Shown here one piece after another: positions 80 through 29,577 of a stretch of 33,273 nucleotides of DNA (the first letter of the stretch is position 1; each line of letters begins with the position of its first letter). This DNA comes from Fimbriiglobus sp. (GTDB taxonomy: Bacteria > Planctomycetota > Planctomycetia > Gemmatales > Gemmataceae). A program made the translations under genes and the position numbers. The stretch covers positions 1 through 33,273 of the forward strand of contig JANYHV010000013.1 in the NCBI GenBank assembly GCA_025362195.1. The letters run 5' to 3'. The notes beneath the pieces are model-generated. The model was not told the DNA's origin. It did no database searches and saw nothing but the letters and a program-made list of their open reading frames with translations.

Positions 80-210
80 GGCAAACCCTCGGGGAGTGCC
101 TAAAACTAGCGAAAAACCGTAGTCTGTCCACACGGCCTAAGTCACGGTGCAAAATCGACTTGAGTTTCTGGAAATTCATTTCTGAACGCTCGTTTTTGCC
201 ATTGTTTACT

Positions 211-222
211 TAACGATCGTTA
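211..222. promoter_or_regulatory. 12-base perfect palindrome, possible operator
   Basis: TAACGATCGTTA is a perfect inverted repeat in an unusually A/T-rich stretch between the transposase and the terminator at 359-385. Its size and symmetry would suit a dimeric repressor, but no regulator gene is adjacent and no second copy was noticed. Confidence 0.25.
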
Positions 223-358
223 GTTTCCGACCGCATCGAGCCGCCGCTAAAATGCTATTGCTTCGGCTTCAATGGCTGGTGGTTCAAATGTCACCACTTC
301 GGCGTGACTTTAATGCGAATTTCGAAGCGTTCGAGTCCCTCTCTTTCGCACCTCGAAG

Positions 359-385
359 GCCCCCGGTGAACCCCGGGGGCTTTTT
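359..385 (+). terminator. Intrinsic terminator
   Basis: An 8-bp stem, GCCCCCGG at 359-366 paired with CCGGGGGC at 373-380, encloses a 6-base loop and is followed by five T residues (381-385). It reads on the plus strand. No intact gene precedes it. It lies immediately after the tRNA-like remnant at 330-348, so it may once have ended that transcript. Confidence 0.75.
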
Positions 386-488
386 CGTGCGTTGCGTCAC
401 TTTCGCCGACGAACCGTTGCTTTCCCCGCCCCGGGTACGTTATTCTGGAGCCGTTGTCATTTCTCCCCGATGGCTGCTGGGTTCCGTC

Positions 489-3470
489 ATGCGTCGTCGT
501 TTGTCGTGGGTCGCACTGGGTGCCGTCGCGCTGAGTCTGTTCGGCTGGTCGGTCGCGGCCGAGAAGTCGGCCGGGCGGACGCCGTGGGCGTCGTCGAAGT
601 TGGTCGGGTCGCCCGAACCCCCGCCGGCGTTCAAACTCGTCAACGCCTTCCCCAAGGCCGTGTTCAAGAACCCGACGCTGATGACCCAACCGCCCGGCGG
701 CGGGCGGCTGTTCGTGGCGGAGCAGGGGGGCAAAATCTTCTCGATGAAGCCGGACGCCGGGGCCACGCCGGACCTGTGCTTCGACCCCGCCGCCGAGTTG
801 AAGAACCTCGCGCTGACGCCGAACGCCGCCGCGGTCGAATCGACCTACGGCATGGTGTTCCACCCGAAGTTCGCCGAGAACCGCCAGTGCTTCGTCTGCT
901 ACACCGTGAAGGCCAAGGACAAGCCGAACCTGGCCGACGGCACCCGGGTGTCGCGGTTCACGATGACGGCCGCCGAACCGCCGCGGATCGACCCGGCCAG
1001 TGAGGAGATTCTGTTCACCTACCTGCAAGGCGGGCACAACGGCGGCGACCTGCACTTCGGCCCGGACGGGATGCTGTACATTTCCACCGGCGACTCGGCC
1101 GACCCGAACCCGCCCGACGCCCTCAAGACCGGCCAGGACATTACCGACCTGTTGGCCAGCGTGCTGCGCATCGACGTGGACCGCAAGGACGCCGGGAAGA
1201 ACTACGCGATCCCGAAGGACAACCCGTTCGTCGGCACCGACATCGACGGCAAGCCGGCCCGCGGCGAGGTCTGGGCCTACGGCTTCCGCAACCCGTGGCG
1301 GATGAGCTTCGACAGGGCCACGGGCGACCTGTGGGTCGGGGACGTCGGCTGGGAATTGTGGGAACTCGTCCACAAGGTCGAGCGGGCCGGCAACTACGGC
1401 TGGAGCGCGGTCGAGGGCCGGCAGCCGGTGAACGTCGGCTGGAAGCTCGGCCCGACGCCGATCCAGCCGCCGGTCGTCGAAATCCCGCACACCGAAGGCG
1501 CGAGCATGACCGGCGGGTACGTCTACCGCGGCAAGAAGTTCCCGCAACTCGTGGGCAAGTACGTCTTCGGCGACTGGGTCACGAAGCGCATCTGGGCCGC
1601 CGAAGTGAAGGGGACCGAACTCGTCGAGTTGAAGGAGATCACGCCGCCGACGGTCCGCGTCGTCGCGTTCGGCCAGGACGCCGACGGCGAGTTGTACGCC
1701 CTCGACTACGACGCCGGCACCGTCCACGCCTTCGTGCCGAACGCGGCCACGGCGTCCGACCCGGCGAAGTTCCCCCGCACCCTGTCGGCGAGCGGGCTGT
1801 TCGCGGACACCAAGGCGCACGCCGTCGCGCCCGGGGTGGTCAAGTTCGAGATCAACTCGCCGCAGTGGCAGGACTACGCGACCTCGGAGCACTTCCTGGC
1901 CGCGCCGGGCACCGCCCCGGTGCTCGACTACGCCGACAAGAAACAGATCGAGGGCAACGTCAACTGGAACTGGTACCGCCTGCACTTCCCGGCCGACTCG
2001 GCGCTGGTCAAGACCCTCTCGCTCGAAACCGAGCGCGGCAACCCGGCCAGCCGGCGGCGCGTCGAAACGCAGGTGCTGCTCTTCGACGGCCAGTACTGGC
2101 ACGGGTACACCTACGCCTGGCGCGACGACCAGTCGGACGCCGACCTCGTGCCGGCCGAGGGCAGTGAGAAGAGCATCGCCGTGAAGGACCCCGTGTTCGC
2201 CGGCGGGGTACGGCAGCAGACGTGGAATTTCGCGGGGCGGTCGCAGTGCATGCAGTGCCACCACTCGTGGGCGGAGCACACGCTCGGCTTCAACGTCGAA
2301 CAACTCCACCGCGACACCGACGGCCCGGCCGGCCGCGTCAGCCAGTTGACGAAACTGCACGCGGCCGGGGTCTTGGAGCGCCGCGGCAAGGACGGCAAGC
2401 CGCTGCCGGCGTACAGCCCCGACGACCTCAAGAAGGAGCGCCGGCTGGTCAACCCGGCCGACGCGACGGTCAAACTCGACGACCGGGCCAAGAGCTACCT
2501 GCACGCGAACTGCGGGCACTGCCACCGCATGGGCGGCGGCGGGGCGGTCGATTTCGAACTGCACGCCTTCACCGACTGGTCGAGCAACAAGCTCCTGGGC
2601 GTCAAGCCGACGCGGGGCACCTTCGACCTGCCGGACCCCTGCGTCATCGCCCCCGGGGAGCCGGAGCGGAGCACGCTGTACTACCGCATGGCGAAGTTCG
2701 GCACCGGCCGGATGCCGCACGTCGGGGCGGAGTTCGTGGACGAAGCCGGGGTCGCCCTGGTCGGCCGCTGGATCGCGTCGCTGAAGGGCAAGGACGACCG
2801 GCGGGAAGCCTGCCCGCCGATGGGCAAACTCGACGAAGCCGCGATCACCGCCGCCCTGCAGGCCAAGCCGCACGACCTGGCCCGCGCCGTCGGCACGGCG
2901 ACCGCCGGCGAGAACGTCGCGGCCATTCTGACACTGGCCGCCAAGCTGCCGGCCGGGCCGCGGCGCGACCTGTTCGAGGGCTACTTACCCCACGACGGCC
3001 GCGACAAGAAGCTCGGCAGCAACCCGCGGCCGAAGGCGATCCTCGCCCTCACCGGAGACGCGGTCAAGGGCCGGGAATTGTTGGTCGCCGAGAAGTCGCA
3101 GTGCTTAAAGTGCCACAAGCTCGACGGCCAGGGCAAGGAGGTCGGCCCCGACCTGTCGGCCATCGCTAAAACCCGCAGCCGCGAACACCTGCTCGAAAGC
3201 CTGCTCGACCCGTCGCGGCGGGTCGAACCGGCCTACCAGTCGTACCTCGTGACCGCCCACGACGGCCGCACGTTCACCGCGCTGGTCACCCGCAAGGACG
3301 CCAAGGCCGTCGTGCTGCGGGACGCCGAGAGCCGCGAGACGACGCTACTCCCGGCCGACATCGAGACCCTGCGGCCGGCCCGCGAGTCCCTGATGCCGAC
3401 CGGGCTTCTCGCCGACTTCACCCCGCAACAGGCCGCCGACCTGCTGGCATTTTTGACAACGCGCAAGTAA
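489..3470 (+). CDS. Secreted PQQ-type sugar dehydrogenase fused to tri-haem cytochrome c
   Basis: A 993-residue exported protein. The ATG at 489 is chosen because it begins a clear signal peptide (basic MRRR, hydrophobic core, Ala-X-Ala near residue 24); the open frame back to 252 crosses a terminator. Residues ~45-420 resemble the glucose/sorbosone dehydrogenase beta-propeller (LFVAEQGG, GGHNGGDLHFGPDG, GFRNPWRMSFD), which in known members uses PQQ to oxidise sugars in the periplasm. The middle resembles SO2930-type cytochrome proteins. Three haem-attachment motifs are visible: CMQCH at residue 587, CGHCH at 675 and CLKCH at 872. The last lies in a TIGR02603-like Pirellula/Verrucomicrobium haem domain ending with LADFTPQQAADLLAFL. 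Inference: electrons pass from sugar to the haems within one polypeptide. The gene faces the HTTM operon across a shared hairpin. The sugar substrate is unknown. Confidence 0.88.
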   Translation: MRRRLSWVALGAVALSLFGWSVAAEKSAGRTPWASSKLVGSPEPPPAFKLVNAFPKAVFKNPTLMTQPPGGGRLFVAEQGGKIFSMKPDAGATPDLCFDPAAELKNLALTPNAAAVESTYGMVFHPKFAENRQCFVCYTVKAKDKPNLADGTRVSRFTMTAAEPPRIDPASEEILFTYLQGGHNGGDLHFGPDGMLYISTGDSADPNPPDALKTGQDITDLLASVLRIDVDRKDAGKNYAIPKDNPFVGTDIDGKPARGEVWAYGFRNPWRMSFDRATGDLWVGDVGWELWELVHKVERAGNYGWSAVEGRQPVNVGWKLGPTPIQPPVVEIPHTEGASMTGGYVYRGKKFPQLVGKYVFGDWVTKRIWAAEVKGTELVELKEITPPTVRVVAFGQDADGELYALDYDAGTVHAFVPNAATASDPAKFPRTLSASGLFADTKAHAVAPGVVKFEINSPQWQDYATSEHFLAAPGTAPVLDYADKKQIEGNVNWNWYRLHFPADSALVKTLSLETERGNPASRRRVETQVLLFDGQYWHGYTYAWRDDQSDADLVPAEGSEKSIAVKDPVFAGGVRQQTWNFAGRSQCMQCHHSWAEHTLGFNVEQLHRDTDGPAGRVSQLTKLHAAGVLERRGKDGKPLPAYSPDDLKKERRLVNPADATVKLDDRAKSYLHANCGHCHRMGGGGAVDFELHAFTDWSSNKLLGVKPTRGTFDLPDPCVIAPGEPERSTLYYRMAKFGTGRMPHVGAEFVDEAGVALVGRWIASLKGKDDRREACPPMGKLDEAAITAALQAKPHDLARAVGTATAGENVAAILTLAAKLPAGPRRDLFEGYLPHDGRDKKLGSNPRPKAILALTGDAVKGRELLVAEKSQCLKCHKLDGQGKEVGPDLSAIAKTRSREHLLESLLDPSRRVEPAYQSYLVTAHDGRTFTALVTRKDAKAVVLRDAESRETTLLPADIETLRPARESLMPTGLLADFTPQQAADLLAFLTTRK

Positions 3471-3489: not shown

Positions 3490-5355
3490 TCACTTCACCA
3501 TCAGGCCCAGGCGGCGGGGGAATGCCGTCAGGGCTTCGAGCACGAGCTGCCAGCCGCGGTTGCTCGTCGCCACCGGCTTGCCGTTCTCGTGTAGCTCGAT
3601 CGTTTTGCCGCCCGGATCTGCGGTCAGCGCGTCGGAGAAGTCGCTGGCGGCGATGACGGCCACGCGGTGGTGGTGGTCCGGGCCGGCGGGGAAGCGGAGC
3701 AGGCGGCGGGTCGTGTCGGGCGGGCCGAACAGGCGGTTCCGGATGGCCGCCCCGGGCAGGTAGCACAACAGCATGGCCATCATGAACAGGCTGAACACGA
3801 TCAGCCCCATGAACGTGCCGATGCCGAAGTGGAAGGCCGCCGCGCCCATGATGAGCCACGGCCGCAGGCGGGTCCAGACCAGGAACGGGAAGCCGATTTC
3901 GATGACGAACGTGAACGCCACGCCGAACGCCGCCATCGCCGCGAACACCGGGCGGCTACTCACGAGCGTGCGGAGCAGGTTTTCGTACCACTGGTAGTAG
4001 ATCATCGTGAACTCGGGGTTCACGAGCGTGTCCCAGTACGCGGTCGTGTTCCACCAGGCCGCGCCCTTCAACTTCGACATGCCCGAGGCCAGGTAGATGA
4101 CGCAGAAGTGCATCTGCAACAGCCGCTGGGCGAACCCGGTGGCCACGGACAGCGGCGGGGCGTGCAGGTACGCCAGGGTCGCCGCGTCGAGGGTGCCGGT
4201 GCGGCGCAGGCTCAGCCGCGCGGCCCGGTACCGGTTGAGTAATCGGTCCAGCGACAGGGCCGCGCCGCAGTCCGAGATCATCAGGTAGATGAGCACGACG
4301 TTCATCATCGTGTCCATGCCGAACAGCACCTGCTGGCAGCGGTGGATGTAGCACAGCACGGCCAGCCAGGTCAGCACCGACGTGACCCGCGTGAACAGCC
4401 CGGCCGTGAACATCACGAACACGACCAGCATCGCGCAGTGGGCGACCCGCATCTCGGCCGGGTCGGTCATGTGGAACCAGATCGAGAAGACCGGCGACCC
4501 GGCCCGCAGCACGATCGCCGGATCGACGTTCCAGTACTCGAAGTACTCGAGCTGCTTGTCCCGCTCGGCGTACTCCAGCCGGACGAGCCGCTTCAACAGC
4601 ACGACCCACGCCTGCCGCTGGCCGTAGTCCATCTCGGCGAGGTGCTTCAAGACGTACGACTTCTCGGTCGCGTCGGTGGGGATCGTGCCGTAGTACGCCT
4701 CGGCTTCGCGGGCGAAGGTCGCGCGCTCGGCCGGGGACATGAGGCCGACGGCGTCCGGGCTGACGGAGATCGGCAGGTCGGGGACGCGGGTCTTGGCCAT
4801 CGCCGCCCGGCGGCCCTCGTCCACCAGCACGGCGAGTTGGTTCGCGCGGTCGGTCGGGTCGGCCGCCAGGCCGTCGATGTACGCGAGGCCCTGGAAGGTG
4901 AAGTTGCCCCCGACCGTCCGCCGGCGGATCTGGTCGATCTCGATCGCCTGGAGGCGTTCCAGGAACGCCAGCTTGGCGTCGAGTTCGGCGGGCGTGGCGG
5001 TCGGCCCGAGGTGGGCGCGGGCGTAGGCCATGATCGCCTTGCGGCGGTACGGGGCCTCCGGGATTTGCGCCGCGCGGGCCGGCTCGTACGGGTCTTCCCA
5101 CCCGGCCGGGGCGACGAAGTGCGGCAACTCCTTCCGCTCCCGCTCCGCGTTGGCGAGCGAGTACCAGGCGTCCTTGCCGAAGAAGTTGGACAGGTCGAAC
5201 GAGTACGCCAGGTGCGTGTACACGATCAGGCTCCCGACGACGATGCGGAGGAACGCCATCGTCGTCGGGTCGGCCGGGGCGAAGAAGAAGCTCAAGGAGC
5301 GCGCCCCGGCGTTCGGGTCCCGCGCCGCCGGCGTCGAAGGGGTGGACTGGCTCAT
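3490..5355 (-). CDS. HTTM-domain (vitamin K-dependent gamma-carboxylase-like) membrane protein
   Basis: A 621-residue multi-spanning membrane protein. After a short polar N-terminus comes a first hydrophobic helix around residues 33-53 (MAFLRIVVGSLIVYTHLAY). A large loop of about 230 residues follows, then at least five more hydrophobic segments in the C-terminal half, including the typical HTTM stretch QMHFCVIYLASGMSKL and a final span before a soluble tail. The HTTM family contains the membrane part of vitamin K-dependent gamma-carboxylases, but most bacterial members have no known reaction. The ATG at 5355 overlaps the stop of the upstream gene by four bases, so the two are translationally coupled. 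The large extracytoplasmic insert is longer than I expect for a plain HTTM protein. Carboxylase activity is not claimed. Confidence 0.8.
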   Translation of the reverse strand: MSQSTPSTPAARDPNAGARSLSFFFAPADPTTMAFLRIVVGSLIVYTHLAYSFDLSNFFGKDAWYSLANAERERKELPHFVAPAGWEDPYEPARAAQIPEAPYRRKAIMAYARAHLGPTATPAELDAKLAFLERLQAIEIDQIRRRTVGGNFTFQGLAYIDGLAADPTDRANQLAVLVDEGRRAAMAKTRVPDLPISVSPDAVGLMSPAERATFAREAEAYYGTIPTDATEKSYVLKHLAEMDYGQRQAWVVLLKRLVRLEYAERDKQLEYFEYWNVDPAIVLRAGSPVFSIWFHMTDPAEMRVAHCAMLVVFVMFTAGLFTRVTSVLTWLAVLCYIHRCQQVLFGMDTMMNVVLIYLMISDCGAALSLDRLLNRYRAARLSLRRTGTLDAATLAYLHAPPLSVATGFAQRLLQMHFCVIYLASGMSKLKGAAWWNTTAYWDTLVNPEFTMIYYQWYENLLRTLVSSRPVFAAMAAFGVAFTFVIEIGFPFLVWTRLRPWLIMGAAAFHFGIGTFMGLIVFSLFMMAMLLCYLPGAAIRNRLFGPPDTTRRLLRFPAGPDHHHRVAVIAASDFSDALTADPGGKTIELHENGKPVATSNRGWQLVLEALTAFPRRLGLMVK

Positions 5356-6629
5356 GGGCGCAACTGGCTCCAGGGGAACTCGTACCCGGAGTGCTCGGTC
5401 AGCAGGTCTTTGAACTGCTCCGGCCCCGGCTCGTCCAACTTCAGCTTGCCGGCCCGCGGCAGGATCGGGATCAGCCAGTACAGCATCGGGTCTTGCGGGT
5501 CCACGAGTTGCCCCTCGCGCGTGTAATCCCCCAGGAAGTAGACGCGGTACAGGGTCGGGTGGAACGGGCTGAGCTTCTGCGTCACGAAGTACTGCGTCGT
5601 CACGATGCGGTGCTCGGCCCGGTACAGCTTGACGTTCACGACCTTGAACCCCGGCGACGTGTGTTCGACGGCCAGGTGCTTCGTGAACGACGGCAATAAG
5701 AACCGGGTCACGTCGGCCTGCGGCTGGGCGTACCAGCGGAATTCGACCTCGTAGTTCGACGGCGGGTGCTCGATCCGCTTCACCCCCGGCAGCGCCCCGA
5801 GGGCCACGTCCTGGCGGCGGCGGTTGACCTGCGCCCGCTCGTCCGAGTTGTTGCCCAGGTCGGTCGTCGCGCGGACGGCGTTCTCGGTCAGCGACAGCCG
5901 GCGGTAGTACGTCTGGCCGAGCGGGTCCTTCCACTGCGTGTCCCGGCGCGGCAGGGTGACCCACTCGTGCAAGGTCTTCGGCTTCCCGGTCGCCGGGTCG
6001 GTCTCGTCGAGTTCGTAGGTCAGCAGCGCGAACAGGTGCGACGCCGGGCCGGGTTCGGGCGAGTAGAAGTGGTAGGCGTTCCGCAGGTACGTGAACTGCA
6101 TGAACGGCAAGTAAAACCGCTGGCCGAGTTGGTTCGTGATCCACGGCGACGATTCCGGCCAGGTCGTCGCCACGAGCAGCGACGAGAAGTGGAACGCGAC
6201 GAAGCCGACGATGACCGTCCGCCGGCCGACCCGGGCGATTGCCATCAGCCCCGCGCCGACGAACCCCGCCCCGGCGATCACGCGCATCAGCATCTGGCCC
6301 GAGTCCCAGTGGTCCGGTAAGCCGAAGCTGTTGGCTGCGGCCGTGAGGGCCGCGAGCAGCCAGACGAGCGGCGAGTCCGGGCGGAGGCTCAGCGCGCCCC
6401 CGGCGATCACGGCGGCCAGCGCCACGGCGACGAGCCGGACGGTCCCCGACGGCCCCGGCCCGTTCTCGCCGGCGACCAGGCCGACGACGACGGCCAGCAG
6501 GCTCAACCCGAGGGCCGCGACCGTGAGGCGGACGACCGCGGGCAACGCGGCCGGCGGCAAGACCTCTGTCGAGGGCGGGATCGGACTCGCGGGGACAATG
6601 GGCGTGGGGCGCGGGGAAGTGTCGGCCAT
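5352..6629 (-). CDS. Membrane protein partner of HTTM protein
   Basis: A 425-residue protein with a proline-rich start, four to five hydrophobic segments between residues ~30 and 160, and a soluble C-terminal domain of about 260 residues rich in aromatic and charged residues. It contains the stretch NAYHFYSPEPGPASHLF. I cannot name a Pfam family with certainty; similar proteins accompany HTTM genes in planctomycetes. A good ribosome-binding site (AGGAGGGG) precedes the ATG at 6629, and the gene ends in a four-base ATGA overlap with the HTTM gene, showing a two-gene operon. The 'SPEPGP...F..L.YEL' segment resembles the soluble portions of HTTM-associated proteins, so the pair probably forms one membrane complex. 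Function unknown. Confidence 0.75.
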   Translation of the reverse strand: MADTSPRPTPIVPASPIPPSTEVLPPAALPAVVRLTVAALGLSLLAVVVGLVAGENGPGPSGTVRLVAVALAAVIAGGALSLRPDSPLVWLLAALTAAANSFGLPDHWDSGQMLMRVIAGAGFVGAGLMAIARVGRRTVIVGFVAFHFSSLLVATTWPESSPWITNQLGQRFYLPFMQFTYLRNAYHFYSPEPGPASHLFALLTYELDETDPATGKPKTLHEWVTLPRRDTQWKDPLGQTYYRRLSLTENAVRATTDLGNNSDERAQVNRRRQDVALGALPGVKRIEHPPSNYEVEFRWYAQPQADVTRFLLPSFTKHLAVEHTSPGFKVVNVKLYRAEHRIVTTQYFVTQKLSPFHPTLYRVYFLGDYTREGQLVDPQDPMLYWLIPILPRAGKLKLDEPGPEQFKDLLTEHSGYEFPWSQLRP

Positions 6630-6680: not shown

Positions 6681-7100
6681 GCCGACGGCACGGCCGGCGG
6701 CGTGGGCCGGCGGCGCGAACGCCGGGGTGCCGCACGCGCCGCGAGCGAGGATTCGACCCGACCGCTACGACGAGTTTCACCCGCCCATTTTTCCCAGTCG
6801 GAGCACCGGCCGGGGCGGCACGCAGCCCCCAGTCTGCCCCGAACGCCGGAAGCGTGAAAACTGCGTAGTTTGCCCGGTTTACTATTGAATCCCCGTGAGG
6901 CGAATCTTACCATCTGCTTACGCCGGTCGACTCCCGCGGAACCTTCCTTGATGGCCACCAATCCACGCCACCATTGAGTCTCACTGCCCGCCGACGCGAC
7001 CCCCCGACCCGGGGTCCGCTCGCGGCGGCGGCGTCGAGTTGACCGTTCGCGTTTGGGTTACGGGATTTCGTTCGACACCTGATTCAGGAGGATGAGTTCG
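6681..7100. other. Divergent intergenic region
   Basis: This gap separates the start of the HTTM operon (minus) from the CHG-repeat gene (plus). Bases ~6855-6920 are clearly more A/T-rich than the surroundings and are the likeliest place for a plus-strand promoter. Short open frames here have no recognisable motif and no ribosome-binding site. AGGAGG at 7086-7091 is the ribosome-binding site of the next gene. Confidence 0.5.
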
Positions 7101-7619
7101 ATGTACACAATGGTCATGATGATGGCGATGTCCGGTTCCACGGACACGACGGCCTTCGGCGGCAAGCTGTTCGGCGGCGGCTGCCACGGCACGAGCTGCC
7201 ACGGCGCGATGGTCGTTTCGACCGGCTGCACCGGCTCCCACGCGGCCCCGACCGTCCCCGCCCCGGCCTACGCCGGCTGCTCGGGCACGAGCTGCCACGG
7301 TTCGACGAGCTGCCACGGCGGCAGCGGTTTCCTCGGCCTGCGGAGCCACTTCAGCCGCAAGTCCGGCTGCCACGGCTCGACCGGTTGCCACGGTTCGGTC
7401 GCCCCCTCGACGGGCTGCACCGGTTACGCCGCCCCGGCCGCGGCCGATTGCTGCGGGACGACCGCCGCGTACTCGACCGGCTGCGTCGGCTCGATCATCA
7501 CCGGAAGCACCCCGGGTGCCGTGATCACCGAAAGCCCGGCCGCCCCGGCCGCCGGGGCCAAGGAAATGCCCAAGGCGAAGGACGCCCCCAAGGGCGAGAA
7601 GAAGGGCGACGGGGTCTAA
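7101..7619 (+). CDS. Cysteine-rich CHG-repeat protein
   Basis: A 172-residue protein of low complexity built around repeated Cys-His-Gly triplets: GCHGTSCHGA, TSCHGSTSCHGG and GCHGSTGCHGS. These are interspersed with STGCTGS/Y, AGCSG, CCGT and TGCVG, for twelve cysteines in all. The N-terminus is methionine-rich (MYTMVMMMAMSG) rather than a standard signal peptide. The C-terminus is a lysine/proline/alanine tail. The start at 7101 is chosen because AGGAGG at 7086-7091 is nine bases upstream; the in-frame ATG at 7092 abuts that motif. Regularly spaced Cys-His pairs suggest metal binding or disulfide cross-linking, but this is inference. Comparable SCHG/GCHG-repeat proteins occur in Gemmata-like planctomycetes without known function. 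Confidence 0.8.
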   Translation: MYTMVMMMAMSGSTDTTAFGGKLFGGGCHGTSCHGAMVVSTGCTGSHAAPTVPAPAYAGCSGTSCHGSTSCHGGSGFLGLRSHFSRKSGCHGSTGCHGSVAPSTGCTGYAAPAAADCCGTTAAYSTGCVGSIITGSTPGAVITESPAAPAAGAKEMPKAKDAPKGEKKGDGV

Positions 7620-7671
7620 GCGACCCGCCTTCAAGAACGATGAGCACGGACAGGGGTCCGGGTTCCGAGGC

Positions 7672-7694
7672 GAGGCGGGCACGATGCCCGTCTC
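7672..7694 (+). terminator. Hairpin downstream of CHG-repeat gene
   Basis: GAGGCGGGCA (7672-7681) pairs with TGCCCGTCTC (7685-7694) around a CGA loop, with one G-T pair. It lies about 50 bases after the CHG gene. No T-tract follows, so it may be a factor-assisted terminator. Confidence 0.5.
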
Positions 7695-7754
7695 GCCTCT
7701 CGCGTTGACGGCCTACAATGCCCGGAGTCGTTGCCCCGACGGTCCGGAGTCCGC

Positions 7755-8348
7755 ATGGCGGTCCCTTTCTTGCGCCCGCGCGTCATCGACCTCGTCTTCC
7801 GGGTCTACGCGCGGCCCCTGCACCCCGAGTTCTTCACGCGCCGCAAGGTCCGCCGGGTCGAGCGCGCCGGGTTCACGCTGACCGCCGCCATCACCCCCGC
7901 CGGGCACACGCTGGAGTGGACGCGGGGCGGCGTCGCCTTCATGGAAGTCCTGACCGCGACCGGGGACGCCCTGCCCGCCACCGGGTTGCGCTTGCAGCGG
8001 TGCCTCGACGGACTGGACGCCGGGCGGAGCGGCCGGTGCGACCTGTCGGCCGACGTGCGGTACGAGATGAGCCTGCGGGCCGAGACCCTTTCGCCCGAAG
8101 TGTTCAGCCACGTCCAGCGGGAGTTGATCGACGACGGGGCGCGGCGGGGGATGCTCTTCCACACCGCGAACTTGCGGCCCGGCGAATCCCCCGGGGCGTC
8201 GCCGGTGAGCTACTTGACGGTGGACCCGATCGCGGCCGGCCTGGCGGTCAGCGCCTTCCACACGTTCCCCGACGAGTTCGTCATCGTCCGCACGCAGTCG
8301 CTCGTCGAGTTCCCGACGGTCGGGGCGTTTGAAGAACTGCCGGGCTGA
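7755..8348 (+). CDS. DUF2617-like protein
   Basis: A 197-residue soluble protein with no signal peptide or membrane span. It begins MAVPFLRPRVIDLVFRVY and includes ADVRYEMSLRAE and a C-terminal AFHTFPDEFVIVRTQSLVE segment. This matches my recollection of the DUF2617 family found in planctomycetes and actinobacteria, which has no established function. The ATG at 7755 is chosen because it begins the conserved part; an in-frame start at 7731 is possible. TACAAT at 7713-7718 could be its -10 element. The gene is convergent with the SH3 protein gene, the stops being eleven bases apart. Confidence 0.65.
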   Translation: MAVPFLRPRVIDLVFRVYARPLHPEFFTRRKVRRVERAGFTLTAAITPAGHTLEWTRGGVAFMEVLTATGDALPATGLRLQRCLDGLDAGRSGRCDLSADVRYEMSLRAETLSPEVFSHVQRELIDDGARRGMLFHTANLRPGESPGASPVSYLTVDPIAAGLAVSAFHTFPDEFVIVRTQSLVEFPTVGAFEELPG

Positions 8349-8359
8349 GGCGCCGCCGG

Positions 8360-9562
8360 TTACGGGTCGGCCCGCTGGACCCGGGCGACGGTCAGGACCG
8401 GCACGTCGCCGTACTCCGACGTGTACCGGCGGGTGCCGAACAATTTCGTCTCGCCCTCGCGCCACTGGCTCAGGTCCACGCCCGGCCCGGCTTCGAGGTA
8501 CGCGACGACCCGGCTGGTGCCGCCCTTGCCCGTCGCGCGGAACGAGTACCGCGGCTCCCCGTCGCGCTGGAACCCGGTCGGCCGGATCGTGCCCGCCCCG
8601 GTCCACCCGGTCGCGTCCGACTTCGCCGCCGGGCGGTCGGTGCCGTCCCGGTCCCCGCGGACCGCCCCGGTGGCCGCCCCGCCGGCTTCCCGCGCCGCCG
8701 GCCGGCCGGCCGCCCGCTGCTTCTCGTAGACCGAGTGGACCCGTTCGTAGCACAGGTTGGCCAGGTCCACGTCGCCGCCGGGCTGGTTCATGTCGCTGGC
8801 GAGTTGCAGGTAGAGCCGCTCGGCCCGCTGGTACTCCTGGCGGTCGCTGGCCTGCTCGGCCTGGAGCCAGAGGGTGTGCTGCGGCCAGTCCGCCGGCTTG
8901 CCGCGGCCGGCCGTGGCGCTGGTGCCGACCGGCACCGCAAGGGTCGGGGCGCGGGCCGCGCCGGCCACGGGCGTCGATTCGGCGGCCGCCGGCGTGACCG
9001 CGCTCGGCGCGGGGGACTTCACCGTGTACGTCGCCGCCGCCTGGCCTTTGACGAACTGCACGGCCGCACGCGGCAGGTAGCGGCACTCGCCTTTGACCGG
9101 CTGAATCGGCGTCCACCCGGTCCGACCGGAGCCGTTCGGCTCGAACGAGTTGGTGCCGATGATCTGCACGAGGGTGCCGTCCGGCACCCGTTCTTTGCGG
9201 ACGTTCAACGGGGCCGTCAGGCCGGGCCGGCCCATCGCGACTTCGACATCCGGGTCGGCCTGGACGACGGCGTTGCGCGGCAGCGATTTCGGGTTGCCCC
9301 CGTCGATCTCGCTGAGCGCGAGGGTGCGGATCCACGACACCTGCCCGCGCGGCGGCTCGACCGCGAGCCACTGGTCGCCGACTTCGTGCAGGACGATGAC
9401 GAGTTCGCCGCGGGCCAGCGACCCGGTCTCTTCCATGTTTACGCCCGGACCTGTGCGCAAGCTGGCGTTGTCCGTGGCCACGGTCGCCAGGTACGGCGTC
9501 GCCTGGGCCAGACCGACGCCCGCCGCCGAGAGCCACACCAGACAGGTGAAGACGATGCGCAC
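8360..9562 (-). CDS. Exported SH3-domain protein
   Basis: A 400-residue protein. The GTG at 9562 is preferred because it follows a GGAG motif and begins a signal peptide (VRIVFTCLVWLSAAGVGLAQ, cleavage after Ala near residue 19). An upstream ATG at 9631 would add 23 residues with four arginines and two cysteines ahead of the signal. Residues ~23-85 form a bacterial SH3 domain (ASLRTGPGVN, QWLAVEPPRGQVSWI). A second SH3-like unit may lie at ~100-180 (PLNVRKERVPDGTLVQIIG, GWTPIQPV). An Ala/Pro-rich linker and a helical segment follow, with a C-terminal unit containing GETKLFGTRRY. Bacterial SH3 domains usually bind peptidoglycan or cell-surface ligands, so a periplasmic envelope role is inferred. 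Confidence 0.75.
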   Translation of the reverse strand: MRIVFTCLVWLSAAGVGLAQATPYLATVATDNASLRTGPGVNMEETGSLARGELVIVLHEVGDQWLAVEPPRGQVSWIRTLALSEIDGGNPKSLPRNAVVQADPDVEVAMGRPGLTAPLNVRKERVPDGTLVQIIGTNSFEPNGSGRTGWTPIQPVKGECRYLPRAAVQFVKGQAAATYTVKSPAPSAVTPAAAESTPVAGAARAPTLAVPVGTSATAGRGKPADWPQHTLWLQAEQASDRQEYQRAERLYLQLASDMNQPGGDVDLANLCYERVHSVYEKQRAAGRPAAREAGGAATGAVRGDRDGTDRPAAKSDATGWTGAGTIRPTGFQRDGEPRYSFRATGKGGTSRVVAYLEAGPGVDLSQWREGETKLFGTRRYTSEYGDVPVLTVARVQRADP

Positions 9563-9652
9563 GGCAAAACTCCGACGGACCGGGGACCGACAACAACCCC
9601 CCCGCATACCGTCGTCCGCCGCCCGCCGCAAGTTGAAGAAATCTCAGGCCAA

Positions 9653-10900: not shown

Positions 10901-11068
10901 CAAGTTATCCTAGGAACGATTCGGCGTCCGATTGAGTGAAAATCTGACGCCGACAATCGGGTTCGCCGGATCGCGGCCACTCGAACTGCGATTTATCTGG
11001 GGCTGGGCGACGCCGGCCGTTCGTCGGACAATGCCAGCACACGCACCCTGCTTTCGGAGCCGACTGCC

Positions 11069-11755
11069 ATGCCCGCTGCGACCTTTGCCGAACTCACCAA
11101 GATGCTCGACCACTCCCTGTTGCAACCCACCCTGACCGACGCCGAGATGGAGGCGGGGTTGATCCTGGCCCGCGAGTACGACGTCGCGTCGGTCTGCATC
11201 AAGCCCTACGCCGTGCGGCTGGCGGCAAAAATGCTCGCCGGCTCGACCGTCCAGGCGAGCACGACCATCGGCTTCCCGCACGGCGGACACGTCACCAAGA
11301 TCAAGGTCGCCGAGAGCGAGATCGCCCTGGCCGACGGGGCGACGGAACTCGACATGGTCGTCAACATCGGCAAGGTCCTGTCGGGCGAGTGGAACGCCGT
11401 GGCCAGCGACATCGCCGCCGTCGTGGCGGTGGCGCACGCCGCCGGGGCGAAGGTGAAGGTGATCTTCGAGAACGCCTACCTGAAGGACGCGCACAAGATC
11501 GAGTTGTGCAAGATTTGCGGCGAAGTCCGGGCCGACTGGGTCAAGACCTCGACCGGGTACGCCGAGTCCGGGGCGACCACCGACGACTTGAAGCTGATGC
11601 GCCTGCACGCCCCGGCCCACGTCCAGGTCAAGGCGGCCGGCGGGGTGCGGACGTACGAGCGGCTGCTGGAAGTGCGGGCCATCGGCGTGAGCCGGGTCGG
11701 GGCGACGGCGACGAAGGTCATCCTCGACGAGGCGCGGGCCAAAATGGGGCTGTGA
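11069..11755 (+). CDS. deoC: Deoxyribose-phosphate aldolase
   Basis: A 228-residue TIM-barrel enzyme of usual bacterial length. It catalyses reversible cleavage of 2-deoxy-D-ribose 5-phosphate into glyceraldehyde 3-phosphate and acetaldehyde in deoxynucleoside breakdown. Recognisable motifs are LDHSLLQPTLT near the N-terminus, ELDMVVNIG with the catalytic Asp (residue 95), WVKTSTGY with the Schiff-base lysine (K159), and VKAAGGVR with the second active-site lysine (K188). The ATG at 11069 fits the family start. The gene stands alone, with no other deo genes beside it, and it ends two bases from the stop of the convergent ATP-grasp gene. Confidence 0.95.
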   Translation: MPAATFAELTKMLDHSLLQPTLTDAEMEAGLILAREYDVASVCIKPYAVRLAAKMLAGSTVQASTTIGFPHGGHVTKIKVAESEIALADGATELDMVVNIGKVLSGEWNAVASDIAAVVAVAHAAGAKVKVIFENAYLKDAHKIELCKICGEVRADWVKTSTGYAESGATTDDLKLMRLHAPAHVQVKAAGGVRTYERLLEVRAIGVSRVGATATKVILDEARAKMGL

Positions 11756-28345: not shown

Positions 28346-28605
28346 GGCATCCCCCAAGACTGCGGCACCCGAGTGAGGCGCACGGACTGCTCTAGCGGTT
28401 ACATTCGGCACGACCCGACGCCGAACATGAGGCAGATCGGGCAGACTCCCCGCAGGCGGCGGAGTCGGCACAACCCGCCCCCTTGCCAGAAGTCCCGATC
28501 TCGCCCAGCTTGCACCGTCGACCCGTTCAGCCGCCGGCCGCAAGGCAAATGCCGCCGGCCGGCCGGCGAAGCCCTGATGACGGTCCCGCTCCCGACGAGG
28601 TTCCC

Positions 28606-29577
28606 ATGAACGCGGTCGCCCAATCGCTCGCCCCGGACAGTCGGCTCCAGGGCGGGGCGTACCGCGTCCTGGACGTGATCGGCCGGGGCGGGTTCAGCTT
28701 CGTCTACCGCGCCCTCGACCGGGACGGCAACACGGTCGCCATCAAGGAACTGTTCCCGCCCGAAGCCCGCCGCAAGACCTTCTTCGGCCTCTGGACCCGC
28801 CAGGCCGTGCGCAAGACCCGGGACTGGCGCGAGTTGTCCCGCCGCGCCCGCGCCGAGTTCGCCCTGGTCCAGTCCCTGCGGCACCCCAACGTCGTCCGCG
28901 TCCTCGAACTGTTTGAAGAGAACGGCACGCTCTACATCGTCATGGAACTGCTCAGCGGCACGACCCTGCACGAGCACCTCGGCAAGCACGGCGGGCTGGG
29001 CGAGGCGGACGCCGTCGTCATCGGCACGGCCGTCGGGTCGGCCCTGGCGGCGGCCCACGCCAAAGGGGTCGTCCACCGGGACGTGAAGCCGGGCAACATC
29101 ATGACGTGCGACGACGGCCGCATCGTGCTCCTCGACTTCGGCATCGCCAAGAGCTTCGCCCGGTCGGACGCGCGGTCGCAGGTCGGCACCGAGTGCTACA
29201 TGGCCCCCGAGCAGGTCCGCGGCGAACGCCAGACGAGTGCCGTCGATTTGTACGGCCTGGGGGCGACGATCTACCACACGCTGACCGGCCACGCCCCCGT
29301 CCGCGCCGAGGACCGTCGGGCCGGCACGCGGCTGCCCCCGCCGGCGGAACTGGCCCCGCACGTCAGTGTGGCCGTGTCGAACGCGGTCATGCGGGCACTG
29401 TCGATGGCCCCGGCGGCCCGGCAAACGAGCGTGATGACGTTCGCGGAAGAGTTGCGCGGCGTGCCGCGAGCGCTGGCCGCCCAAGCCCCGGCGACCGGCG
29501 AACGGTGGTGTTGGTGGAAGCCGCTCGTCATCGTCGGGCTACTGGCCGTCCTGGCCCTCCTGCTGAAGAATTGGTAG
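28606..29577 (+). CDS. Hanks-type Ser/Thr protein kinase, tail-anchored
   Basis: A 323-residue protein kinase. The ATG at 28606 follows GAGG and leads straight into the kinase fold; longer in-frame starts (from 28483) add a Pro/Arg-rich stretch without support. Visible motifs are the glycine loop IGRGGFSFVY, VAIK with the ATP lysine (Lys47), the catalytic loop VHRDVKPGNI (His157-Arg158-Asp159), DFGIAK (Asp177), and GTECYMAPEQVRG in the activation segment. The C-terminus ends in one hydrophobic span (WKPLVIVGLLAVLALLLKNW, 304-323) with nothing beyond it, so the kinase faces the cytoplasm, anchored by its tail. No external sensor domain is present, unlike PASTA kinases. It is divergent from the BBP7-like gene. 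Confidence 0.93.
   Translation: MNAVAQSLAPDSRLQGGAYRVLDVIGRGGFSFVYRALDRDGNTVAIKELFPPEARRKTFFGLWTRQAVRKTRDWRELSRRARAEFALVQSLRHPNVVRVLELFEENGTLYIVMELLSGTTLHEHLGKHGGLGEADAVVIGTAVGSALAAAHAKGVVHRDVKPGNIMTCDDGRIVLLDFGIAKSFARSDARSQVGTECYMAPEQVRGERQTSAVDLYGLGATIYHTLTGHAPVRAEDRRAGTRLPPPAELAPHVSVAVSNAVMRALSMAPAARQTSVMTFAEELRGVPRALAAQAPATGERWCWWKPLVIVGLLAVLALLLKNW

Follow-up and report, generated by a model that had tools for sequence, protein, structure and literature searches.

What does a short planctomycete protein do with twelve Cys residues and eleven Cys-x-Gly (CxG) repeats? The question is raised by a predicted gene in the window, by which we mean the whole 33,273-nucleotide stretch of Fimbriiglobus sp. 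DNA analyzed here (contig JANYHV010000013.1). The original prediction for this gene singled out its six CHG triplets and read their Cys-His pairs either as metal ligands or as elements of a cross-linked layer. The reading at which we arrive, and to which we give a probability of about 0.4, is that of an exported, disulfide-capable envelope protein that is possibly matured by a neighboring gene pair, the HTTM module; export, disulfide formation, and maturation are steps that we infer from sequence comparisons.

The predicted gene and its family

The features of the locus are collected in Table 1. The start at 7101 was chosen over an ATG at 7092 because of its spacing from the AGGAGG motif and because homologues begin with MY[ST]. 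An SD-like motif precedes 110 of 136 family genes, and in 92 of these it lies 7-10 nt from the start. An ORF on the minus strand (6981-7682) overlaps the CxG coding sequence and is most likely a shadow, since homologues retain the plus frame. Translation of the plus frame yields everything that the original prediction had listed: 12 Cys, three paired CHG blocks with six CHG in total (CHGTSCHG, CHGSTSCHG, and CHGSTGCHG), two GCTG elements along with GCSG and GCVG, and a Met-rich N-terminus with six Met in residues 1-10. The earliest basic residue is K22. The protein matched zero families in Pfam and NCBIfam. As a side observation, leader codon 3 (7107-7109) is an AGY Ser codon in 119 of the 136 family genes and TCN in 4 among those listed, compared with an AGY share of 43% among the Ser codons further along these genes; common descent or a translation-initiation constraint could account for this bias.

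Table 1. Features of the CxG locus, in window coordinates
Feature	Position	Strand	Remarks
HTTM / SdpB-like protein	3490..5355	-	621 aa; predicted GGCX-like fold; start overlaps partner stop (ATGA)
Divergent partner	5352..6629	-	425 aa; six predicted N-terminal hydrophobic helices (read as membrane) and a mixed C-terminal part
AGGAGG ribosome-binding site	7086..7091	+	9 nt upstream of start 7101
CxG-repeat protein CDS	7101..7619	+	172 aa; stop codon included in coordinates; homologues by tblastn
Uncharged leader MYTMVMMMAMSGSTDTTA	7101..7154	+	residues 1-18; first charge D15
Cys-x-Gly repeat region	7182..7490	+	residues 28-130
Lys/Ala/Pro/Glu-rich C-terminal tail	7530..7616	+	occupies the place of the TIGR03000 domain of most paralogues
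DUF2617 protein	7731..8348	+	next gene 3' of the CxG gene, same strand

With the window protein as a tblastn query, a match (E <= 1e-3) was obtained in 26 of the 95 family genomes, its own included, and a gene start reading MY[ST]xV was present in 25 of the 27 loci (L004-L030; the exceptions are L024 and L029). A DNA pattern for the leader start is found in 79 of the 95 genomes and, read backwards, in 1 of 95. The family set used here holds 143 distinct proteins starting with MY[ST]xVLMxA, of which 136 are complete and 135 have at least three CxG; having been gathered by pattern, the set is conserved partly by construction at residues 1-3, 5-7, and 9, while residues 10-18 and the repeats were free to vary. 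The leader/CxG family can be described as MY[ST]x[VI][LM]MxA followed by Cys-x-Gly repeats, an arrangement shared by the window protein, which matches the leader profile with an E of 4.2e-11 while itself being one of the 40 profile rows. A pattern-based search of contigs with the window protein produced 75 pattern matches, 0 of them confirmed.

In 96 of the 136 complete proteins, the CxG region is followed on its C-terminal side by the domain TIGR03000 (NCBIfam, E 1e-3). The 136 matched no other NCBIfam family at this threshold, and Pfam (E 1e-3) contributed DUF928 alone, in 2 of them. TIGR03000 is absent from the window protein. For the leader genes linked to the HTTM module (see below), sequence is available for 35 of 49, of which 32 are complete; searched with a local profile, 7 of these 32 carry TIGR03000 compared with 91 of 108 other family proteins, so the linked gene is mostly a distinct short branch. 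By its sequence, the window protein is a member of this short, TIGR03000-less, often CHG-rich branch of the leader/CxG family.

Cys-x-Gly repeats and CHG triplets

The repeats of the window protein are not what its composition alone would give: in 20,000 residue shuffles of the repeat region, six CHG were never reached (mean 0.18, maximum 3) and neither were 11 CxG (mean 2.3, maximum 9). A double-CHG DNA pattern has three matches in the assembly from which the window comes (87% complete), all inside the CxG gene, and two matches when read backwards. Repeat statistics were computed on the 130 family proteins that are complete and contain three or more CxG. Of their 1917 Cys, 1572 are followed by Gly at Cys+2 (82% vs 26% background), and the 1572 CxG observed compare with 504 +/- 16 (sd) in shuffles. 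The middle residue is His in 17%, Tyr in 14%, Ser in 13%, Thr in 12%, Gly in 10%, and Cys and Asn in 9% each, followed by Phe and Trp; relative to background, His, Tyr, Thr, and Asn are enriched and Gly, Cys, Ala, Val, Leu, and Arg are depleted. The original prediction expected Cys and His positions to be conserved among homologues. This expectation held for Cys, which is kept as Cys-x-Gly, and failed for His.

These numbers bear on the possibility of a metal-binding or thiol-buffer protein, located in the periplasm or the cytoplasm, in which soft metals such as Cu or Zn would be bound by the CHG triplets. The enrichment of His as the middle residue (background 4.4% for the whole family), which rises to 34% of the CxG middles in the 32 complete HTTM-linked proteins, speaks for such a role, whereas the high variability of this position and the lack of any CHG in 55 of the 130 family members and in 8 of the 32 linked ones speak against it, as does the finding that no recognized metal gene is among the neighbors conserved across genera. 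We consider a protein of this sort quite improbable. CHG as a conserved metal motif was rejected as a family trait. The survey of CHG counts thus weakens the metal-binding half of the original prediction, and a CHG-specific metal site is unlikely to be the function of the CxG family. In terms of the Cys residues themselves, 69 of the 130 proteins have an odd number and 61 an even one, which means that complete pairing within one molecule is not the rule. A disulfide-linked layer of CxG proteins is a plausible hypothesis.

The uncharged leader

The statement that the protein has no classical signal peptide was correct and applies to the whole family. Not one of the 136 complete family proteins, window included, has Lys or Arg in residues 1-18, and in none of them does a basic n-region stand ahead of a hydrophobic core, the arrangement that serves as the Sec/SPase I criterion. 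Leader hydrophobicity is limited to about residues 4-10, in 106 of the 136 the first charge comes at residue 15 (Asp in 74 and Glu in 32), and basic residues come only after the hydrophobic core, unlike in a normal signal peptide.

Proteins with TIGR03000 and no leader provide a reference. A strict Sec-like test was defined by an SD-like motif, Lys or Arg in residues 2-9, a hydrophobic core, no early acid, and an A-x-A-like site. In a sample that consists of the best-scoring TIGR03000 matches without a leader gene nearby, rather than a random draw, 27 of 37 proteins were Sec-like compared with 0.2% of codon-shuffled controls; Lys or Arg in residues 2-9 occurs in 0 of the 136 leader proteins. 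Of the ten strict-test failures, L220, L231, and L238 are leader variants (MISAIVMAA, MFSMLLVMT), L206 has a sequence cut by the contig end, L087, L201, L214, L226, and one ORF of L227 passed a looser test only, and L076 is ambiguous. The TIGR03000 domain is preceded, then, by a Sec-like signal or by the uncharged leader or a variant of it. Because the domain follows a Sec-like signal in most leaderless proteins, the leader is likely to be an export signal as well, and we propose that it probably replaces the Sec signal; this comparison is our principal argument for export, and an indirect one. If the leader does direct export, there is to our knowledge no precedent for a signal of such a kind.

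The same leader properties could be taken to mean that the CxG protein stays inside the cell and that the leader is a membrane tether or an assembly segment. A stretch of 18 residues without Lys or Arg in 136 of 136 proteins, closed in most by Asp or Glu as the first charge, is compatible with this idea. However, a domain that 96 of the 136 members carry is found behind Sec-like signals in most of the leaderless proteins sampled, and we judge an intracellular protein rather improbable. The leader is also separable from the repeats, since a few leader proteins are almost without CxG. One example is at L134 (G037:C267), where two leader genes stand in tandem and one of the encoded bodies is rich in Gly, Trp, and Tyr; here the leader carries a different low-complexity material.

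The HTTM module

Gene order was compared across 20 homologous loci and the window, with the 25 largest gene groups considered. The only groups present in at least 5 of the 21 loci and spanning more than one genus are the CxG gene, HTTM, its partner, DUF2617, and antisense shadows; all remaining groups in at least 5 loci are confined to one genus (g6). Of the 95 family genomes, 90 contain HTTM (E <= 1e-10), 85 the partner, and 79 DUF2617. The linkage counts that follow draw on 193 listed leader places in 84 genomes and are lower bounds; G031 is represented by its second partner copy. In at least 49 of 85 genomes from at least 20 genera, the partner has a leader gene no more than 5 kb away, with the two genes divergent in 49 of 49 linked genomes and 361-1783 bp apart. 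Likewise, DUF2617 has a leader gene at a distance of up to 5 kb in at least 30 of 79 genomes from at least 13 genera, and in 30 of 30 this leader gene is upstream and shares the strand of DUF2617. Among 41 named HTTM loci, 20 have the strict leader pattern, which is on the opposite strand in 19 of these; they include the cultured strains Gemmata sp. IIL30 (L344) and Limnoglobus roseus PX52 (L336). Elsewhere the window encodes a large protein that combines Glucose/Sorbosone dehydrogenase with cytochrome c domains (186-3464, plus strand), a protein with a bacterial SH3 domain (8360-9631, minus strand), and, far from the CxG gene, the products of two ORFs (10940-11752 and 28396-29574) that have relatives in other genera, in groups of four loci.

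The linkage is not universal. Among the matches listed, 36 of the 85 genomes have the partner with no leader gene alongside. A relaxed leader search in 19 unlinked module loci (L302-L320) found none, with some of the contigs (for example L310, L311, and L320) ending at or near the partner; one ORF at L318 has five CxG and no leader. Since one of the unlinked genomes, G071, is a single contig and since the leader gene of G045 sits on another contig than the module, the link between CxG gene and module does not extend to all genomes. These genomes favor the explanation that the HTTM/partner/DUF2617 link is inherited gene order with no shared function and that the CxG protein matures alone, as does the location of most TIGR03000-bearing paralogues elsewhere. 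On the other hand, mere inheritance sits less easily with the finding that these genes, apart from antisense shadows, are the only ones to cross genera at the threshold given above, or with an orientation that is divergent without exception. We lean against inherited order while regarding it as a real possibility.

What kind of proteins make up the module? The window HTTM protein matches the NCBIfam model TIGR04033 (SdpB) with an E of 1.4e-8 and 34.7 bits, which is under the curated cut-off of 178.4. Pfam HTTM is matched by 17 of 27 homologues (best 1.7e-6) and not by the window copy. An AlphaFold2 model of the window protein has a mean pLDDT of 80. Foldseek placed 15 GGCX structures ahead of all else (E 6.3e-3 to 0.19, probability 1.00), with no match under an E of 0.001, and a VIA structure alignment to GGCX gave Z scores of 16.9-18.4, the highest of them with an rmsd of 5.1 over 277 residues, the next unrelated fold having a Z of 5.4. 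The model therefore predicts that the HTTM neighbor has a GGCX fold. The HTTM alignment contains an invariant Lys, K428, in a KL motif; it may correspond to GGCX K218. The C-terminal 75 or so residues of the model form a thioredoxin-like beta-alpha-beta-beta-alpha end of weak resemblance (Z 3-4), and no CxxC was seen in this part of the alignment; the end is perhaps a decayed oxidoreductase domain.

Glu carboxylation, the GGCX-type reaction, would need Glu in the CxG protein. The window protein has three Glu, and 12 of the 32 complete linked CxG proteins have none after residue 18. GGCX-type carboxylation as a general reaction on the linked proteins was rejected for this reason.

The partner model has a mean pLDDT of 85 and no convincing fold match; helical bundles match its N-terminal helices with Z up to 11.4, a score that means little for folds of this type. 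The only NCBIfam model to recur among the partner homologues is SdpA (TIGR04034), to which 2 of 30 match (best E 0.08), and the window's own partner matched zero NCBIfam families. Run against PDB sequences, the profiles of HTTM and of its partner gave chance-like helical matches only. The two Sdp resemblances recall SdpABC of Bacillus subtilis, in which SdpA and SdpB are required for SDP maturation (PMC13343845). As in that system, a small Cys-containing protein is encoded next to two others, here the SdpB-like HTTM protein and a partner that is probably bound to the membrane, and the CxG protein could by analogy be an SdpC-like precursor from which the pair releases a secreted peptide with an antimicrobial or signaling role. 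In contrast to SdpABC, the HTTM match is far below the SdpB cut-off, the SdpA match is marginal, and no SdpC-like core peptide was seen: the C-terminal tails of 38 TIGR03000-less proteins have no core peptide in common, and the repeats run along the whole protein. Furthermore, none of the cross-genus neighbors is recognized as an immunity gene. An SdpC-like precursor is, in our estimation, very improbable.

Taxonomic range

The leader profile covers the first 33 residues and has 40 rows, all drawn from these genomes. Of 248 class genomes searched with it, 65 match, 61 from the family and 4 of the 7 others from the order. Of the misses, 163 are counted only in total, and those listed, which are ordered by kinship, include no family genome. 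This leaves 0 of 180 class genomes outside the order. The leader/CxG family was found here only in Gemmatales, as judged by this profile. The leader DNA pattern does occur outside the family, in 34 of 391 phylum genomes (3 of 392 when read backwards). Being short DNA matches, these were read as mostly due to chance, and loci L064-L073 were excluded from the counts. TIGR03000 extends further: beyond the order, 51 of 111 class genomes contain it (E <= 1e-3). Because the domain reaches beyond the order and the leader was not found there, the leader seems to be the later, order-restricted acquisition. Named records with the HTTM neighbor mostly bear Fimbriiglobus, Gemmata, Limnoglobus, or Gemmataceae labels (family Gemmataceae, order Gemmatales), and the nearest one is a Fimbriiglobus MAG with 78% identity in HTTM. 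Two records titled Bacteroidales bacterium and Singulisphaera sp. (L334 and L349) carry a Gemmataceae-type locus, and their labels are probably wrong.

Proposed role and relation to known systems

In the mechanism that we favor, the uncharged leader, MY[ST]xVLMxA closed by Asp or Glu, would take the protein across the inner membrane instead of a Sec-type signal. Once outside the cytoplasm, the Cys of the CxG repeats would form intra- and intermolecular disulfides, and the bonded proteins would make up, or cross-link, a layer of the envelope or of the cell surface. The HTTM protein, with its predicted GGCX fold and SdpB likeness, and its partner would probably mature or oxidize the precursor at the membrane, a role suggested by the linkage of the genes. 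A more specific version can be formulated as an export-maturation route particular to Gemmatales, in which the leader replaces Sec and the GGCX-fold HTTM and SdpA-like partner process or oxidize Cys rather than Glu, yielding a disulfide-built envelope material that would be a bacterial analogue of keratin-associated proteins. Taken as a whole, this version is unlikely.

Comparison to known systems helps to place the family. With the TIGR03000 (plancto_dom_1) proteins it shares the domain that most leader proteins carry after the CxG region, and it differs in that the window protein is without this domain and in that the domain occurs outside the order, where the leader was not found. With GGCX, the HTTM neighbor shares a predicted fold, and the lack of Glu after residue 18 in 12 of the 32 linked CxG proteins sets the two apart. 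The original prediction called the role of such repeats in planctomycetes undescribed, and our open-access literature search is consistent with that: no paper it covered mentions TIGR03000, HTTM together with SdpB, or Gemmata together with HTTM, and the papers on Cys-rich planctomycete proteins that it turned up concern YTV proteins (PMC8567305, PMC10632474). Like the CxG family, YTV proteins are Cys-rich and lineage-restricted. They score highest in a planctomycete cell wall preparation, and in that study each of the 13 leading wall proteins bears a signal of type I or II (PMC8567305), which the leader/CxG family lacks. The YTV domain has no match in the 136 members (Pfam, E 1e-3), with the presence of a YTV model in the Pfam set unconfirmed. 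An older proposal, cited in PMC8567305, had planctomycete walls consist mainly of protein and not peptidoglycan. Peptidoglycan was later detected in planctomycetes (PMC10632474), so that there is no need for a purely proteinaceous wall, a point that counts against our proposal.

What is new here is the size of the family and its restriction to one order, the leader as a likely substitute for Sec, and the recurrent pairing with HTTM. YTV proteins are the known Cys-rich wall candidates of planctomycetes, and the leader/CxG family is a second and distinct candidate. If the HTTM module does act on the CxG protein, a bacterial GGCX-fold protein would gain a substrate.
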